Below are positions 44,451 to 62,296 of a DNA stretch of 64,000 bases, piece by piece. Position 1 is the first letter of the stretch. The number at the start of each line of letters is the position of its first letter. The translations under genes and the position numbers were made by a program. The stretch lies in the NCBI RefSeq assembly GCF_038050405.1, contig NZ_CP150900.1, positions 2,294,001-2,358,000 on the forward strand, in the 5' to 3' direction. The notes under the pieces were generated by a model. That model had not been told where the DNA came from, did not search any database, and saw only the letters and a list, made by a program, of their open reading frames with translations. The DNA is from Paraburkholderia sp. IMGN_8. Lineage in GTDB: Bacteria > Pseudomonadota > Gammaproteobacteria > Burkholderiales > Burkholderiaceae.

Positions 44451-44700
44451 TGAAGGACATCATCCTACCTGGAAAGACCCACCGGTGCTGATCCCATACG
44501 AACCGACCCAAAAGAAAGCCTACCGGTTAAGGTCGGCTAAAGATTCTGGCTATTCCGAGGGCCGTGCCAGAACCTGAGAGAGGGTTATGCGCAAGATCCC
44601 CACCGGCTGGTCGCGGTATCTGAAACATCATGGCTCACGCAAACGCCAGTTTTGGCTGGCGAGCGCCGTGACGCGCGTCGCGCTGTACCGAGGGTTCAGG

Positions 44701-52627: not shown

Positions 52628-52875
52628 TGGGTTCGGTACTGCGCGGGAACAGGCATTTCACATGCGTGCGCCTTTGTAGGACACTCGGATGGCTGCTCTG
52701 CTCTGGAAAGGTGCCGTTGAGGTTCGCCGACTCCAACGGCGCTTCAGGGTCGAGACGGTGGTCATCCGTCACAGTGCGGCTGGAGATGGCCGGTTGAGCA
52801 CGAATAGGACTGCGCCGGAAAGCGGCCGCACGAACCCATACGTAGCATCGTTTCGTGCGGCCGGCATTGGCCGCG

Positions 52876-53490
52876 CTAGATTTCAGTCTGCTCCGAGATT
52901 TCAAGCGCGTCGTCGACTTCGATGCCAAGGTATCTGATTGTGCTTTCAATCTTGCTATGGCCGAGCAACAACTGGACGGCCCTGAGGTTCTTCGTGCGTT
53001 TGTAAATCAAAGTTGCCTTGGTACGGCGCATGGAATGTGTGCCGTAGACCGTCGGGTCAAGTCCAGCCGCGCCCGCCCATCGATGTATCATCCGCGCATA
53101 TTGCCGCGTTGAAAGGTGTGGGGACGCCGATAGTCGACTGGGGAAAAGGTACTGCTCCGGCCTCAGCGCAGCCTCTTCAAGCCACACGCCGACCGCCGAC
53201 CGGGTCGACTCGGTCAGTTCGAACTGTACGGGCCGCTGCGTTTTTCGCTGAACAATTAGCGCCCGCGGTAGCACCTGATTGCCGTGAGTGACATCGCGGA
53301 CTCGCAGACTGACAAGGTCACAACCGCACAGTTTGCTGTCGATCGCAAGGTTGAACAAGGCGAGATCGCGGACAGCATGAGCGTTCTGAAGATAGATTCG
53401 GATGGCCCAAACGTCTTTGGGCCTCAGCGGCGGCTTCTGGCCGATCAACTTGCCTTTGTTCCACGCCTCACGAGTTTGTTCGGTCTTCAT
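52876..53490 (-). CDS. Short tyrosine recombinase with a changed catalytic Arg
   Basis: The 204-residue protein is a catalytic-domain-only recombinase with the family opening NKGKLIGQKPPLRPKDVWAI. It shows Lys83, His152-xx-Arg155 (THSMRRT), His178 (LGHSKIE) and Tyr187 (IRYLGIE). The site of Arg I, which the family has in SKLRGCDLV, reads SKLCGCDLV with Cys55 (TGC). One C-to-T change from CGC explains this, and it should abolish cleavage. It sits at the left border of the HEPN island. Confidence 0.8.
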   Translation of the reverse strand: MKTEQTREAWNKGKLIGQKPPLRPKDVWAIRIYLQNAHAVRDLALFNLAIDSKLCGCDLVSLRVRDVTHGNQVLPRALIVQRKTQRPVQFELTESTRSAVGVWLEEAALRPEQYLFPSRLSASPHLSTRQYARMIHRWAGAAGLDPTVYGTHSMRRTKATLIYKRTKNLRAVQLLLGHSKIESTIRYLGIEVDDALEISEQTEI

Positions 53491-53775
53491 GACGGACTCC
53501 CACAGGGATCATGGGAGTTCGATTGTGTTACCCGCCCCCGACGCCCGCTTTTGGCGGATTTGCCGGAGACTCACACTCGGCCATGAAGCGACGTTCGCTC
53601 GACGGTGACATATGACTGAAACTCGCCGCGTTTCGGTCATTCGCCCCATTTGATGCCGGCTACCCGGTCAGGAAGGTTGGACGCCACTTGAGGAACCAGT
53701 CATCCCCGATCAGTCAGGTGAGCGTGAAGCGACCTGACTACAATCGGCCGAACAATACAGACACCGAGAGCAATC
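53491..53775. other. Gap between recombinase and lipoprotein
   Basis: About 285 bases with a few short frames and no recognised feature. Its right end should hold the lipoprotein promoter. Confidence 0.35.
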
Positions 53776-54057
53776 ATGAATCTCCGAAACGTCACCAGTG
53801 CATGTTGGGCCATGACATTCATGCTTCTCGTTTCCGGCTGTCAAAACAAGCCGACCGAAGATGAACTGACGCAAGCCCTGCAAGATCGCATCGACGCCGC
53901 GTACAGCCATATCAGCGAGGCGCGCGACCAACTGAACCGACTCGATAACGACAACTGGCAAGACGTTGTATCCAAAACGCGCGAATCCACACAAGCCGCC
54001 TTTGTCGATATCGAAAACGCCCAGTACGCGCTAAAGAAACTGAAGGACGCGCAATAG
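53776..54057 (+). CDS. Small lipoprotein with helical body
   Basis: The 93-residue protein has a lipoprotein signal (AMTFMLLVSGC-QNKPTEDEL) and a heptad-patterned helix (RIDAAYSHISEARDQLNRLD, AFVDIENAQYALKKLKDAQ), suggesting a coiled coil in the periplasm or outer membrane. It is the first gene of the island after the recombinase. No family beyond this pattern. Confidence 0.75.
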   Translation: MNLRNVTSACWAMTFMLLVSGCQNKPTEDELTQALQDRIDAAYSHISEARDQLNRLDNDNWQDVVSKTRESTQAAFVDIENAQYALKKLKDAQ

Positions 54058-54107: not shown

Positions 54108-54884
54108 TTAACAGTATTCGTGCCATGAGGCAAGGAACAGGCGACCGAATTCGATGACCGTTTTGCTGTCGGAAAGTACCTGTGGATGAAGTAAGACGAC
54201 GCGCGAAGCGTTGCCATCTTCAAGCGAATGGAGGAACGTAAAGCAGGGTGAACCGATGGCTTCCTGCTCTGCCCAGATGGCGTTTATGCGGTCCCAATCG
54301 ACACGTCCCACAAGCCCCTGTTTTTCGACTTCGAGAGCGTTAAATCGCTCGCATTCTTCCTTCGTCAGAACCTTCGGCGGGATATACAGTGGTATCCGGT
54401 GCGCTAACGCGTCGCGGTAGTTCTTCAGGTAGTCGGTATGCCATTGCGTCATGGCATCGGACGAAAGGCGGTCCGCCACGGTAAGCGGAAGGTGCTTTCG
54501 CGTCGCTTCCCTGAACATGCTTACATTCAGGGGACTTCCGATTGTCGGCAAAAGATTGTGTCGAAGCACGAAGGCCCACGCGGAGTTTTCGAACACCCCA
54601 TAGACGTTCATCACGAACGCATGAAGATTTATTTGAACATCATGCAGGGATTCCATCGGCAACGGTCGATCAGTGTCCGCTGGAAATAGTTCGAACATCC
54701 GTTGCATGGCACGGCCCATGACGCCAAGGCGGCGCGCAGCGCCATGACAAAGATGTTCCTTCGATGCTGCAACATCGGTTGTGTCCGCTTCGCGCAGGCA
54801 TTCAAGCGTCAGGTCGCGCATATCGGAGTGCGCGGAAACGTAGCCATCCCTGAGGTCGTTTTGCTGCTCGTCGGTATAGGGCAT
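54108..54884 (-). CDS. HEPN-motif protein 1
   Basis: The 258-residue helical protein contains KNYRDALAHRIPLYIPP with Arg157-x4-His162, the HEPN RNase signature. The start is ATG 54884; the first 30 residues (MPYTDEQQNDLRDGYVSAHS) are polar. No membrane segment. It is divergent from two further R-x4-H genes, with 257 bases between. HEPN RNases of this kind are common in toxin-antitoxin and phage-defence loci, but the family also includes other roles. Confidence 0.65.
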   Translation of the reverse strand: MPYTDEQQNDLRDGYVSAHSDMRDLTLECLREADTTDVAASKEHLCHGAARRLGVMGRAMQRMFELFPADTDRPLPMESLHDVQINLHAFVMNVYGVFENSAWAFVLRHNLLPTIGSPLNVSMFREATRKHLPLTVADRLSSDAMTQWHTDYLKNYRDALAHRIPLYIPPKVLTKEECERFNALEVEKQGLVGRVDWDRINAIWAEQEAIGSPCFTFLHSLEDGNASRVVLLHPQVLSDSKTVIEFGRLFLASWHEYC

Positions 54885-55141
54885 GGCGACTGGACTTCGA
54901 TTGACGAGCGGAAACTATATCGTACCTAGCTTTCATCGTGCCGTGTGAGTGGAAGAGCAAGCGGATGCGTGGGCTGGCTCGAATCCCGACCCTCCGCGCC
55001 GTCCGCGTGGGTCTGCGCGCCGCTCGCAATGAGTCTGCCAACGGCCAACCTCGATAGCAGATGTCCTAGGTGCAGGAGAAGGCAGCGGCGGCATCGCACG
55101 TCTGTACAATTCCCTCGCAGCCTCACTAACGGGAGAAACCC

Positions 55142-55630
55142 ATGGAGCAGGCTTACGCGGCGATCGGGCGCGCGGTGATCGCGATGCAGATGTTCGAGGC
55201 GGCCTTCGTGTCGATCCACGAAGGCTTCAAGATGATCACCGACCCCGCGTACCTTAAGGCGACGGGCGGGATGATCGAAGAGGGGCGGTACAAAAACGCG
55301 ACGGCGAACATGGTGAAGGTCCTCTCGCAGCGTGGGCAGATCGCGGCAGATCTGGAGGACCGACTCAACACCCTAATTGACCGCCGCAACGAACTAATGC
55401 ACCGCTGGTTTCTTCGCAACGGCTGGCCCGCGAACGACGACAATGACCCGGCCAGCTATGCGGACGTGATCCGGCTCGCGCAGTGGGTCCGTACCGAGGC
55501 AGATGCGATCACGCACATGATGGCGGGCTACATGCTGAAGTACGCCCATCCCGACCAGCATGAAAAGAACCCCGAGGCGGTCATGAAGGCCGTCACAGCG
55601 ATGTTCCATCGGGTTCACGTGCAGGAGTAG
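55142..55630 (+). CDS. HEPN-motif protein 2
   Basis: The 162-residue all-helical protein has the motif NTLIDRRNELMHRWFL, Arg82-x4-His87, with Asn next to Arg as often in HEPN sites. The start (MEQAYAAIGRAVIAMQMFEA) follows a GGGAGAAACCC. Its stop lies 6 bases before the next gene, whose ribosome-binding site GCAGGAG overlaps it, so the two are one transcript and probably function together. Confidence 0.7.
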   Translation: MEQAYAAIGRAVIAMQMFEAAFVSIHEGFKMITDPAYLKATGGMIEEGRYKNATANMVKVLSQRGQIAADLEDRLNTLIDRRNELMHRWFLRNGWPANDDNDPASYADVIRLAQWVRTEADAITHMMAGYMLKYAHPDQHEKNPEAVMKAVTAMFHRVHVQE

Positions 55631-55636
55631 ACGAAC

Positions 55637-56212
55637 ATGCTCGTGACAAAAATCGACGCCGCCCGACGACAACTCATTACTGCCATTCGCCCTTTCTTCG
55701 ATGGCGGCGATCCCGTTTCCGTGTACTCGCTGGCATCGAACGCATGGGAGGTCATCGATGTGCTCTGCACGAGCGCGGGCGTGGAAAGCTTCTCCAAGCA
55801 GGCCCGCGAAAACCTGCCAGGCGGACACACGCTAAAGTACTACATCAACGAGCCGTGTCGAAACTTCTTCAAGCACGCCGAGCAAGACCCCAACCCTGAT
55901 AGCTCGGTCGAACTGCGCGAGGCCAACGTTGCCGCCATCCTGTTTTTGGCAGTGGAGGATTACATACGGTTTCGGCAGGGCGGTCCAGTAGAGGCGCAGG
56001 TCTTTCAGCTGTGGTTTATCGCCGTCTTCCCGGAGAAGGTCACCGAAGATGACCCTGTGGCGCAATCAAAACTCGAAAGCACCAAACTCGCGTTTCCCGG
56101 CATCGCCACACTTGCTTCGTCCGACCAGATCGAGATGGGGCGGCAGGTACTGGAGGCCGCGCGCAAAGATGCCGGACTCACGGCTGACCCGAAAACCGAG
56201 CCAAGCCTCTGA
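55637..56212 (+). CDS. HEPN-motif protein 3
   Basis: The 191-residue helical protein has YINEPCRNFFKHAEQDPNP with Arg75-x4-His80, another HEPN-type motif, in a different sequence context from its neighbour. GCAGGAG overlaps the preceding stop, and the start is ATG 55637. It might be a paralogous partner (heterodimer) or a separate nuclease. No nucleotidyltransferase (MNT) antitoxin is encoded next to it. Confidence 0.65.
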   Translation: MLVTKIDAARRQLITAIRPFFDGGDPVSVYSLASNAWEVIDVLCTSAGVESFSKQARENLPGGHTLKYYINEPCRNFFKHAEQDPNPDSSVELREANVAAILFLAVEDYIRFRQGGPVEAQVFQLWFIAVFPEKVTEDDPVAQSKLESTKLAFPGIATLASSDQIEMGRQVLEAARKDAGLTADPKTEPSL

Positions 56213-57378
56213 CTCTCAGATTAGATTGTCACTGGGAATAGTAAAAATAAATTTCGGAATTGAATTTCGAAAATCTTATTTGTTTATATCTTAATTATAT
56301 TCCAAACCCAATTAATTCTACTTAAATATAAATATCGAGTCCTGAATGAGGCTCCAATGTGTCATCGCATCGGGCCAGGGCAAACACCTTCTGACGTTGG
56401 AAAAGCTCCCTGGCGATCACCTGAACGCAACATCAGGAGACGGTGTCGTTGCGTTGCAGCGGCGTTGATATTGAAGAAAAAACGAATCAATGCTTAGCAG
56501 GGTGTATTCCAGCACGTTTGCCGCCCAACGCAGGCGCCGAGATGTCGAATTTTGCTGTGGCGATCAGTCGGCCAAGTGTCGTTTAGCAAGACGAGCGGCA
56601 TCTTTCTGCTAGTCCGTTTCTTCTTAAGCTGGGCGGATGCGGAAGCACCGCTTGCCAAATTCGAGGAAGCACTGTTCTCACTTATTCGGCATCCGCCCTG
56701 TACGAGGACAATGGCCGCCCGCTCGCTTTCTCCGGCAAGTTCCGAAAGATGGTCTAAGTCCGTCGTCTAGCTCTGACAGATCAATAAGCAGGCGTGACCG
56801 CGGATTTTTTACGAAAGAGACGGCCAATCACGCCAATGCCTTTCAAAGATTTGCTTCTCCCGATGTGATTTGCGTCGAATTTTTCAGCATGCGTCGACCA
56901 GACAGAATTGCGTCCACGTTTTTTCCATTGGTACTTTCCGTAGTTCATGGCGCTACACAAACCTGTCTGCCGAGATGTCCACGTGGTCGCTGACGTTGCG
57001 CAGTGAAATGCATGGTAGGCATAGCAGTCAAGCGCATAACATTACGTACGAGCACTGTTTGCATAAAACTATTCCCGTTCTTGGCACAATTTTGTTCCTA
57101 GCTACCAGGCTGGAACCGAGGCTTCGCGTGTTGCCAGGACCGAAGCCGCTGCCCGCGGTACGTATCACCTTCAACGTATCGATCTGCCGCTCGAAGTACG
57201 TGGAACTAGACTTGGGACGTTCTCGGAGCTAAATCGCGACGGGTTCTCCGGAACACACTTTTTCTGAAGTTGCTCGACCGTCGTCAATCTAATTCCCCGC
57301 ACCGCTGTCTCAGTTTAAGACGCTAATCTAAGCTGCCCTCTGATGTTTCGAGCCTGTTAGTGAAACATCTGCGGGTCC
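56213..57378. other. AT-rich, gene-poor stretch of the island
   Basis: The left part (about 56220-56335) is strongly AT-rich. Further on only short frames are found, and none matches a family. Mobile-element ends are not obvious. It separates the HEPN genes from the pseudogene block. Confidence 0.45.
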
Positions 57379-57786
57379 CTAACGCTTTGACCGTTTTTTA
57401 GAGCAAGTTGCGGAAAGTGGCTCGTCGGGAACCGGAACAGCTATAAGACGTTTCGCGGGGATCCCATCTCCCCTTGCCTCCCGTTGGGCGACCGTTTTTA
57501 GCAATACGCTTAAGGCGTCAGCGAGAACCTGCCGCGTAGGCCTCGCTTCATCGGGCGTAAGCTTGGCACTCACTTCCCGTGCCGCTATGGGTTGTGTGTA
57601 CTGCGGGCCATAGAGTATCGCAAGGAGCTTAAGATGGTTCGCAGGGATATCATCTCCGCGCGCTTCCTATCGGGCGATGGCTTGTCGCGACACACCCAAG
57701 GTTTCGGCGAAATTACGGTATTTTCTCCACTTTTGCACTATGCGCTCGCCTAACCAGAGTCTCGTGCGAGGAGATGTCTGCGGGGC
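57379..57786 (-). pseudogene. XRE-family regulator gene with a Trp-to-amber change
   Basis: The minus strand reads RTRLWLGERIVQKWRKYRN, then FAETLGVSRQAIAR, stop (TAG, complement of 57667-57669), then EARGDDIPANHLKLLAILYG and on to KKRSKR before the normal stop at 57379. The normal helix-turn-helix reads SRQAIARWEARG, so TGG became TAG. A second EARGDGIPA unit 60 codons later matches the first and gives a 43-base imperfect DNA repeat (57452 and 57634). Apart from this one codon the frame is open. The original start is not clear. Confidence 0.65.
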
Positions 57787-57825
57787 ACAGCGTCAATCTA
57801 TCCTATCTCACGGTGCCCTTCGAAT

Positions 57826-57980
57826 CTGGTCGCATGCCATTTCGACCTCCGGCCGCTGATCGACACGACGGTTTGTGATCGTACTGTGGCAGCCTATTAC
57901 GAGACCGATAGCCGCCCTTCCACCATGCTCCGGCTGACGCTCGTGCCTATCGGCGAGGCTGGCTTGCATGGATGAACGCC
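57826..57980 (+). pseudogene. Broken second copy of the exoribonuclease C-terminus
   Basis: The plus strand reads LVACHFDLRPLIDTTVCDRT and VAAYYETDSRPS, then in another frame HHAPADARAYRRGWLAWMNA. This matches the intact protein at 24436-24939 (YFDLRPLIDTTVYDRSVAAY, HHALADARAYRRGWLAWMDA) residue by residue with one frameshift near 57920. Only about 50 codons remain, from an independent copy of the family, at 33 kb distance and opposite strand. Confidence 0.75.
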
Positions 57981-58032: not shown

Positions 58033-58049
58033 GAGCGTGTTAGGAACTT
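58033..58049 (+). repeat. IS5 left inverted repeat
   Basis: GAGCGTGTTAGGAACTT, the left end, next to the transposase 3' side. Confidence 0.85.
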
Positions 58050-58852
58050 TGAAGGACTGGCACCGCGTGAACAAGCATAAGCATCGCGAAGACCACAAAA
58101 TGAAGCCCGGCGAGGGTTTCGGGTAGCCGTTCATAATCACGTGCGAGACGGCGGAAACGGTTGAGCCAGCCAAAGCTGCGCTCGACCACCCACCGCCGGG
58201 GCAGCAGTACAAATCCCTTTTTCGCTTCCTCCAGTTTGATCACCTGCAGTTCAATGCCTTCGTCGCGTGCGGCCTGCGCTGGCTCTTTGCCCGTGTATCC
58301 CTGATCCGCAAATGCCACCTTGACGGTATGTCCCGTTACTTGCTGAACCTGACGCGCAAGCTCTGCCACCTGTGCGCGCTCCTGTTCATTGGCTGGTGTC
58401 ACGTGCACCGCCAGCAACTGTCCCAAGGTGTCCACAGCAATGTGCACCTTGCTGCCGCGTTTGCGCTTATAACCGTCATAGCCCGCGCGTGGACCACTCT
58501 CGCAGGTCGACTGTATCGTGCGACCGTCCAGAATCACGGCGCTGGGCTGGCCCTGCCGTCCCTGTGCCACGCGTATCACCGAGCGCAGGTCGCAGACCAT
58601 GTGCTCAAAGCAGCCTGCCTGTAACCAGCGTTGAGTCTGCTGATACACCAGTTCCCAAGGTGGGAAATCATTGGGCAGCATCCTCCAGGGCGCGCCGGCC
58701 CGAGCCATCCAGCGTAACGCGTCAAACATGTCGCGCAGTTCGTATTTGCGCTGCGGCGCCGTGACGTCCATCAGCGTCAGATAGGCGGCCGCGAAGCTCC
58801 ATTCTTCGTCGGACACGTCGGTCGGGTACCCTTTGCGGTCTGCTTTTTTCAT
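58040..58852 (-). CDS. IS5-family transposase
   Basis: The 270-residue transposase (start MKKADRKGYPTDVSDEEWSF) shows the DDE acidic residues in VILDGRTIQSTCE, FADQGYTGKEP and VVERSFGWLNRFRRLARDYE, the last with the conserved Glu of IS5 enzymes. The whole frame is intact, so the element may be active. The alternative start at 58891 runs into the inverted repeat. Confidence 0.93.
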   Translation of the reverse strand: MKKADRKGYPTDVSDEEWSFAAAYLTLMDVTAPQRKYELRDMFDALRWMARAGAPWRMLPNDFPPWELVYQQTQRWLQAGCFEHMVCDLRSVIRVAQGRQGQPSAVILDGRTIQSTCESGPRAGYDGYKRKRGSKVHIAVDTLGQLLAVHVTPANEQERAQVAELARQVQQVTGHTVKVAFADQGYTGKEPAQAARDEGIELQVIKLEEAKKGFVLLPRRWVVERSFGWLNRFRRLARDYERLPETLAGLHFVVFAMLMLVHAVPVLQSS

Positions 58853-58878
58853 CCCGCCAGGATACCAGGTCTCACACC

Positions 58879-58895
58879 AAGTGCCTAACACGCTC
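58879..58895 (-). repeat. IS5 right inverted repeat
   Basis: Read on the minus strand it is GAGCGTGTTAGGCACTT, matching the left end at 16 of 17 positions. Confidence 0.85.
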
Positions 58896-61258: not shown

Positions 61259-62023
61259 CTATCCGGCCAGTTCACGATGCAAGGCCCGATACTCCTGCGA
61301 AAGTTTGTGTCCTGGATCGAGGTGAATGACGGGGGTCGCCTGCTGGTGCGATTCGCGGATCTTCACGGACGAAGACAGCCGCGAAGCCAGCACCGGCAAG
61401 CCCTCACTGACGAGTTCGTCGACCAGCTTTTGAGGCAGGCTCGCACGAGGCTGAAACTGGTTGATGACAATCCCCTCCACCTCCAGCGCGACGTTGTGAT
61501 CCTGCTGGATCTCCTTCACGTTTTCCAGCAACGTGTAAAGCGCGCGACGGGAAAAGTCATCACAGTCGAACGGAATCAGACAACGCTCGACGGCGATCAG
61601 CGCGGAGCGGGTGTAGAAGTTCAACGCCGGCGGCGTGTCGATATAAATCGCGTCATACATGTCGAGTTCGTTGAGCGCGTCACGCAACTTGTAGATCTTG
61701 TAGCGGGATTCCAGTTTGCCGTGCAACGCGTCCAGATCAGGATGAGCGGGCATAACGTCCAGGTTCTCAAACGGCGTCGGATGAATGAAAGACGTGACTT
61801 CCACAGGCCTGAAGCTGAACGTTAACGCGGTTTCAAAGAAGCCGGCGACGGTGGGATGGGCCTCGCTGGCCTGCGGGCCGAGCAGGTATTGACTTGAATT
61901 CGCCTGGGCATCCAAGTCGATAACCAGAGTGCGCAGACCTTCGCTCGCGCTGATGGCCGCCAGGTTGCAGACGATGGTCGATTTGCCTACGCCACCTTTC
62001 TGATTGAATACGACGCGCCGCAT
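61259..62023 (-). CDS. ParA-family ATPase (orphan)
   Basis: The 254-residue protein has the deviant Walker A motif QKGGVGKST (from residue 8), LVIDLDAQANSSQYLLG as Walker A'/B region, and IYIDTPPAL. GGGGAG lies 3 bases before ATG 62023; an upstream frame to 62293 is without similarity. No ParB gene or parS-like repeat is next to it, so chromosome or plasmid partitioning by this gene alone is unlikely. It may position another complex. Confidence 0.87.
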   Translation of the reverse strand: MRRVVFNQKGGVGKSTIVCNLAAISASEGLRTLVIDLDAQANSSQYLLGPQASEAHPTVAGFFETALTFSFRPVEVTSFIHPTPFENLDVMPAHPDLDALHGKLESRYKIYKLRDALNELDMYDAIYIDTPPALNFYTRSALIAVERCLIPFDCDDFSRRALYTLLENVKEIQQDHNVALEVEGIVINQFQPRASLPQKLVDELVSEGLPVLASRLSSSVKIRESHQQATPVIHLDPGHKLSQEYRALHRELAG

Positions 62024-62296
62024 GTTCTCCCCTTGAATGGAAGCTGTCCCAAAGCCCCAGCATACCTGAGTCAGCGGACACCTTGCCGTATGCAGTTGAC
62101 CCGCGGCTGGAAAAAGAAACAAACTTATGCGAACCGACGACTCCTGAGTTACCAACACTAAATCAGCGTCCCGTGACGCGCGAGGTTGTTTCAGCAGCTC
62201 CGTTCTGCGCGCGTTGTTCGAGTGCAGTTCCGGACAGAAGCGATAGCAAGACGAGGTCGGACCGTTGCGAATGCCGCGATACCGTCTGTGCAAACG
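62024..62296. other. Gap of 270 bases
   Basis: No gene seen. It should hold the promoter of the ParA gene. Confidence 0.35.

Follow-up and report, generated by a model that had tools for sequence, protein, structure and literature searches.

A 64-kb stretch (the window) of the 9.1-Mb genome of Paraburkholderia sp. IMGN_8 contains three neighbouring open reading frames (ORFs), here called gene 1, gene 2 and gene 3, whose products each carry an R-x4-H string with the spacing of the HEPN catalytic motif. Genes 2 and 3 form a compact operon that recurs in different genomes, as is expected of a two-gene toxin–antitoxin operon. We read them as a mobile operon in which a HEPN effector is joined to a HEPN partner with an altered motif, situated beside an independent HEPN-like gene 1, and we give this reading a probability of roughly 55%.

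Gene 1 (54108..54884, minus strand) encodes an all-helical protein of 258 amino acids (aa) with R157-DALA-H162 at 54399-54416 (minus strand). Gene 2 (55142..55630, plus strand), the first gene of the operon, encodes a 162-aa HepT-like protein with R82-NELM-H87-R-W89 at 55385-55402, and gene 3 (55637..56212, plus strand) encodes a 191-aa helical protein with R75-NFFK-H80 at 55859-55876, from a family with the signature (R/x)-N-F-F-K-H-A. All three lie within 2.1 kb, with 257 nt between gene 1 and the gene 2–gene 3 pair and 6 nt between the stop of gene 2 and the start of gene 3. The initial annotation had reported RDALAH, RNELMH and RNFFKH in these ORFs and described genes 2 and 3 as a tight operon divergent from gene 1; the sequence confirms the former, and the latter is borne out by both the 6-nt gap and the pair's recurrence elsewhere. 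The nearest named relatives of the three proteins are from Paraburkholderia and Burkholderia.

Recurrence of the gene 2–gene 3 pair

A search of 144 genus genomes found gene 1 in one, gene 2 in six and the gene 3 family, counting distant relatives, in 12; among 299 genomes of the family, the corresponding counts were 4, 4 and 11, fragments and distant matches included. Our genus, family and phylum searches scored only some of the first-look candidates in each genome, and weak relatives may be missed. Gene 3 lies immediately downstream of four of the six gene 2 copies in the genus. Viewed from the other side, 14 close gene 3 loci (75–100% identity, one copy per genome; loci below 75% identity excluded) include six with an intact gene 2 immediately upstream and eight without.

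The junction itself is well preserved in the six intact-pair loci: the gap is 6 nt in five of them and 8 nt in G266, and the ribosome-site sequence is AGGAG in four, with AAGAG and AGGGA in the other two. In the window, this AGGAG, an RBS-like (ribosome-binding-site-like) sequence for gene 3 read from the sequence, occupies 55623..55627 (plus strand) within the last codons of gene 2. Other loci with the pair also share the leader immediately 5' of gene 2 (55074..55139, plus strand), with similarities of 80% over 66 nt in G382 and 87% over 39 nt in G266. A promoter and terminator scan gave a result no better than chance.

Remnants of gene 2 precede gene 3 in four of the eight loci that lack an intact copy. 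Scored by local alignment against 40 shuffles per locus, L018, L021, L023 and L024 gave 34, 23, 19 and 19, against shuffle maxima of 30, 20.5, 17 and 18, with the traces in L023 and L024 limited to some 24 nt at the stop codon and ribosome site. The remaining four loci (L020, L025, L111 and L147) gave no gene 2 trace above their 40 shuffles. Because the junction recurs and traces of gene 2 persist in four of these eight loci, the pair probably has a long history in this clade, with gene 2 repeatedly lost and gene 3 kept. We found no description of the pair in our searches of open-licence papers.

Two further loci have unusual arrangements. In G129, a 251-aa frame (L012 1081-1836, minus strand) runs straight from a gene 2-like stretch into a degenerate gene 3-like one, seemingly because a deletion fused the pair. 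In G382, a short frame (L113 1407-1439, MVELFQKIHE-stop), which by eye resembles the C-terminus of gene 2, lies between a hairpin segment (see below) and gene 2, as if an earlier gene 2 copy had been replaced.

Gene 2 as candidate effector

The gene 2 motif is strongly conserved. In an alignment of all 36 relatives and the query (37 rows), R82 and H87 are retained in 36 rows, the remaining row being a gap, and a relative at only 26% identity also retains both. The residue that follows the arginine is N in 26 rows, H in nine and Y in one. Weak profile similarity points to HepT (PF01934): gene 2 matches it with an E-value of 0.018 and 15.2 bits, below the curated cut-off of 23.5, and HepT-like is the commonest family in the alignment, matched by 18 of the 37 members at E≤0.1. 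Comparison with a local HepT set gave P = 0.0043 for gene 2, which is indicative only because the set is rough (nine of 11 loci gave a motif-bearing frame, two frames were antisense to the match and one was under the cut-off); genes 1 and 3 had no match to this set.

Gene 2 is HepT-like in size, helical fold, R-N-x3-H and a weak profile match over the motif, but it differs from the HepT of HepT-MntA in two respects. First, it has no MNT partner: no MNT gene (PF01909) lies beside it, and the one match in the genome is approximately 0.64 Mb away, within an 887-aa frame. Second, HepT has R-x4-H-x-Y, the tyrosine of which is described in PMC7641770 as being AMPylated by MntA, whereas gene 2 has R-x4-H-x-W, and this tryptophan (W89, in H87-R88-W89) is nearly invariant among its relatives. 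Because there is no MNT nearby and a tryptophan takes the place of the AMP-accepting tyrosine, gene 2 is not a HepT of MNT type. The initial annotation had noted the absence of MNT, NTPase and restriction genes from the cluster, and this holds for MNT; a ParA/AAA-like ATPase (61259-62293) does lie 5 kb from the genes, and for restriction genes the statement covers the 17 window proteins scanned with Pfam.

With its intact motif and HepT-like profile, gene 2 is the best candidate ribonuclease (RNase) effector of the three. None of its relatives was found in viral contigs, plasmids or named phage genomes.

Gene 3 and its family

Gene 3 has a different pattern of conservation. The arginine, R75, is present in all 83 rows of the near alignment (82 of the 120 relatives listed, from 270 found, plus the query, with near-duplicates and fragments omitted), yet in only 16 of the 76 family rows below 45% identity. 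In those 76 rows, H80, K79 and N76 are present in 76, 75 and 72, respectively. A pattern scan for NFFKHA or one other peptide supplied 64 of the 76 distant rows. This biases the apparent conservation of N, K and H, but not the loss of R. The other 12 rows were found by profile, independently of the pattern, and include two overlapping copies of a single gene; five of the 12 have R and all have H. The initial annotation assigned HEPN catalytic spacing to all three products, which the sequence confirms for this window. That three equivalent RNases are present is doubtful, because this catalytic residue is mostly missing from the wide family.

Several weak matches link gene 3 to ApeA-like HEPN domains (PF18739). 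When the 51 members of the wide alignment were scanned with Pfam, nine matched HEPN_Apea (E≤1, best 0.0038) and every other family was matched by a single member at most; the HEPN_Apea matches were all below the cut-off and around the motif. Ten members were rescanned singly: five matched HEPN_Apea, each across RNFFKH and all five bearing the arginine, and two further R-bearing NFFKH members had no match. PADLOC gave five families with one member each for the same 51, one of them Cas13-ApeA at 0.0061. According to PMC3710099, a largely beta domain of some 300 aa is fused to the N-terminal side of the ApeA HEPN domain, whereas the small proteins encoded by genes 1 and 3 do not have this domain.

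Structure gives a second lead. For the gene 3 part of a gene 2–gene 3 model, folded from a combined alignment of 64 rows, the top two structural matches were AbiV (PDB 9bj5 and 9bj7). The same model gave nothing in BFVD at E≤0.001, and a PDB profile search found no sequence similarity of gene 3 to AbiV. PMC3710099 characterises AbiV as typically lacking the motif histidine and having a different conserved one; gene 3, in contrast, retains the motif histidine. When 120 genomes of the order were searched for the AbiV family, one gave a match.

One possible, if tentative, explanation is a narrower version of our preferred reading and compatible with it: gene 3 would be a HEPN-fold RNA-binding regulator with no nuclease activity, leaving gene 2 as the sole effector. 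The scarcity of R75 in the distant rows favours this, as does the description in PMC3710099 of HEPN proteins with a degenerate motif, MtlR among them, that probably bind RNA. The near-complete retention of H80, K79 and N76, pattern-biased as it is, argues the other way, and the same source allows that HEPN families without the arginine but with the histidine (Parep1/8, c2405) may still be active. These resemble the wide gene 3 family in having lost R and kept H, although the families and their contexts differ.

The NFFKHA family is widespread, occurring, according to record titles, in proteobacteria, planctomycetes and candidate phyla, and none of its members listed singly was above a Pfam cut-off. 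Relatives of gene 3 occur in seven viral contigs, in one case with an AAA_15/AAA_21 ATPase roughly 2 kb away, and none was found in named phage genomes. Some betaproteobacterial relatives lie between attC-like sequences, as judged by eye.

We also observed tandem arrangements within this family. Relatives at 49–52% identity (L027, L028, L029 and L031) look like integron cassettes with attC-like flanks, and in L028 and L029 a second gene 3-like gene without the arginine directly precedes the relative. Diverged gene 3-like genes are also in tandem in L009, L011 and L125 (G155, G077 and G350), where one has the motif HKH, the other N-x2-KH, and neither has R.

Functional pair or joined neighbours

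Genes 2 and 3 might instead be independent, solitary HEPN effectors joined by recombination, making the operon a unit of transport and not a functional pair, an explanation that we consider unlikely. It would account for the pair being intact at just six of 14 loci and for the gene 3 relatives which, among the matches listed, have varied neighbours, sit in integron-like cassettes or lie at the end of viral late genes. It accounts less well for a junction that recurs with a 6-nt gap in five of six loci and AGGAG in four, or for gene 2 traces in half of the loci without an intact copy.

Two points do weigh against a strict pair. In G328, gene 2 is followed 4 nt on by an unrelated 179-aa ORF (L114 954-1493, minus strand) with no Pfam match, a different downstream gene and possibly a partner swap. 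In G363, a diverged gene 2 stands by itself. The retention of gene 3 after the loss of gene 2 would be expected of an antitoxin, though a harmless solitary gene 3 would also be retained.

We nevertheless favour a mobile two-gene operon, probably translationally coupled. Gene 2, HepT-like and with its R-x4-H intact, would supply the RNA-cutting HEPN effector. Gene 3 would be a second HEPN-fold protein (AbiV/ApeA-like) that keeps N-x2-K-H, usually without R; because of its HEPN-like fold and the loss of R across most of its family, we regard it as the natural partner of gene 2. It may restrain or trigger gene 2, as an inhibitor or sensor, or it may be a nuclease with an altered site. The pair could then serve as a toxin–antitoxin or abortive-infection (Abi) operon, in which RNA cleavage halts an infected or unsettled cell. 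Operons that combine two HEPN genes have a precedent: Table 1 of PMC3710099 lists the Bxe_C0808 HEPN family in an operon with AbiU2. The likeness is one of description, and the Pfam scans listed no AbiU2 match for gene 2 or gene 3.

A more specific proposal, which we hold as speculative and rather improbable in its full form, is that gene 3, as a HEPN-fold antitoxin or sensor with an altered N-x2-K-H site, heterodimerises with the gene 2 RNase in a HEPN–HEPN toxin–antitoxin/Abi pair, replacing the usual homodimer or the AMPylating MNT. The repeated loss of gene 2 where gene 3 stays would then reflect antitoxin retention, and the solitary NFFKHA proteins of many bacteria would make up a large, so far unrecognised set of HEPN regulators or non-canonical nucleases.

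Chance occurrence of the motif

The R-x4-H string by itself is weak evidence and no more than chance would supply, because it occurs in 55 of the 96 ORFs of 150 aa or more in the window (R[NDH]-x3-H occurs in 16 of 96; six frames, spurious ORFs included). What decides is conservation among homologues. The three products could be ordinary helical proteins with an incidental motif, and no profile match of theirs reaches a curated threshold. We judge this improbable: divergent relatives of genes 1 and 2 conserve both motif residues, and HEPN families are the weak family matches that recur most often. The predicted folds are helical, with the motif at or near the end of a helix. Other searches added little. 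PHROGs, NCBIfam and PADLOC gave nothing useful for the three proteins, PDB sequence profile searches with all families gave nothing relevant, and pairwise profile comparisons among the three gene families were not significant. The evidence is weak but convergent, coming from independent sides, and it weakly places all three products in or near the HEPN superfamily.

Gene 1 and the three-gene arrangement

Gene 1 has a strictly conserved motif. In an alignment of 110 of the 120 proteins listed (857 found; partial or odd-length ones omitted) plus the query, R157 and H162 are retained in all 111 rows, and D follows R in all of them. In distant relatives the residue after the motif R is N or H, and in those inspected from plasmids and viral contigs the motif is present as RNPAAHRMPLYVP or RDSLAHRIP-like strings. 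In the AlphaFold2 model (pLDDT, the predicted local confidence score, 93.9), R157-x4-H162 ends helix 143-162, which is preceded by short helices.

Database matches to a HEPN family are few. A Pfam scan of the 111 members gave nine weak families and no HEPN family, and one of six distant relatives scanned, from a viral contig, matched HEPN_Apea (E 0.0088, residues 114-163) across its own motif at 156-162. Foldseek with the gene 1 model gave no PDB match at E≤0.001, and VIA-align gave rhodopsins and receptors, with no HEPN structure among the 50 matches listed. We set the rhodopsin and receptor matches aside as generic helix packing, and the missing HEPN structure among the matches listed is no evidence against a HEPN fold.

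Relatives of gene 1 occur in 17 plasmid records, mostly from rhizobia and their kin, of which 13 are typed conjugative, and toxin-type genes lie nearby in two of four records inspected (PIN and Fic in one, RES/Xre in the other). They also occur in five viral contigs, in one case between frames read by eye as portal and protease-like; named phage genomes gave one weak match. The protein database includes relatives from other Paraburkholderia, and in a phylum sample of 329 genomes gene 1 was found in this genome only.

Gene 1 is best read as a separate, solitary, mobile HEPN-like effector. The shared sequence of the pair loci begins approximately 66 nt before gene 2, so gene 1 lies outside the shared unit. 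The initial annotation had proposed a multi-RNase defence or dormancy module in which the three HEPN proteins act jointly, and although the three genes share 2.1 kb and all lean towards HEPN families, with gene 1 divergent and close by, we consider such a module very improbable: within the first-look candidates scored, only IMGN_8 has all three genes among the 144 genus and 299 family genomes, the sequence common to the pair loci leaves gene 1 out, and the relatives of gene 1 on plasmids and viral contigs have neighbours different from those here. In G296, another genome of the family, gene 1 occurs together with distant gene 3 relatives, though on separate contigs. Three adjacent genes with R-x4-H do not amount to a three-RNase system, and such a system is not supported. 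The cluster would instead be two independent units that adjoin in a recombinase-linked region, with gene 1 a separate HEPN-like protein.

Mobility and genomic surroundings

The initial annotation placed a recombinase near the genes, and we agree: a 204-aa tyrosine recombinase (PF00589, E 2.2e-19) is encoded at 52876-53490 on the minus strand. Within 52810-53671, the recombinase segment recurs across many Paraburkholderia genomes, often several times, and the recombinase is a possible mobiliser of the region. Adjoining it is a segment of about 90 nt (53577..53671) with a hairpin at 53613-53639, which was matched in at least seven of 97 genus genomes and may be a recombination site with cargo genes. 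In G382, a match to this segment (84.7% over 85 nt) lies approximately 100 nt upstream of the gene 2–gene 3 pair. An attC scan around the window found no pair, using a simple pattern which elsewhere missed sites visible by eye. The plasmid, viral-contig and integron-like settings of the various relatives fit toxin–antitoxin or defence cargo, but mobility alone is no proof of function.

A putative lipoprotein, with a lipobox-like stretch seen by eye, is at 53776-54057. Downstream of gene 3, the GC content drops to 50–55% at 56213-57900, where there are only short, unassigned ORFs, followed by an IS4/5-type transposase at 58040-58891. Further away, at 44510-44584 (minus strand), the window has a match (54.5 bits) to Rfam ncS54, a Burkholderia small RNA.

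Implications

The recurring gene 2–gene 3 operon is the part of this finding that is worth testing. If our reading is true, it would be a HEPN operon without an MNT, NTPase or restriction partner, and it would suggest how a HEPN protein with a degenerate site can restrain HEPN RNases. The NFFKHA family also provides a test case for whether a HEPN site functions without its arginine.
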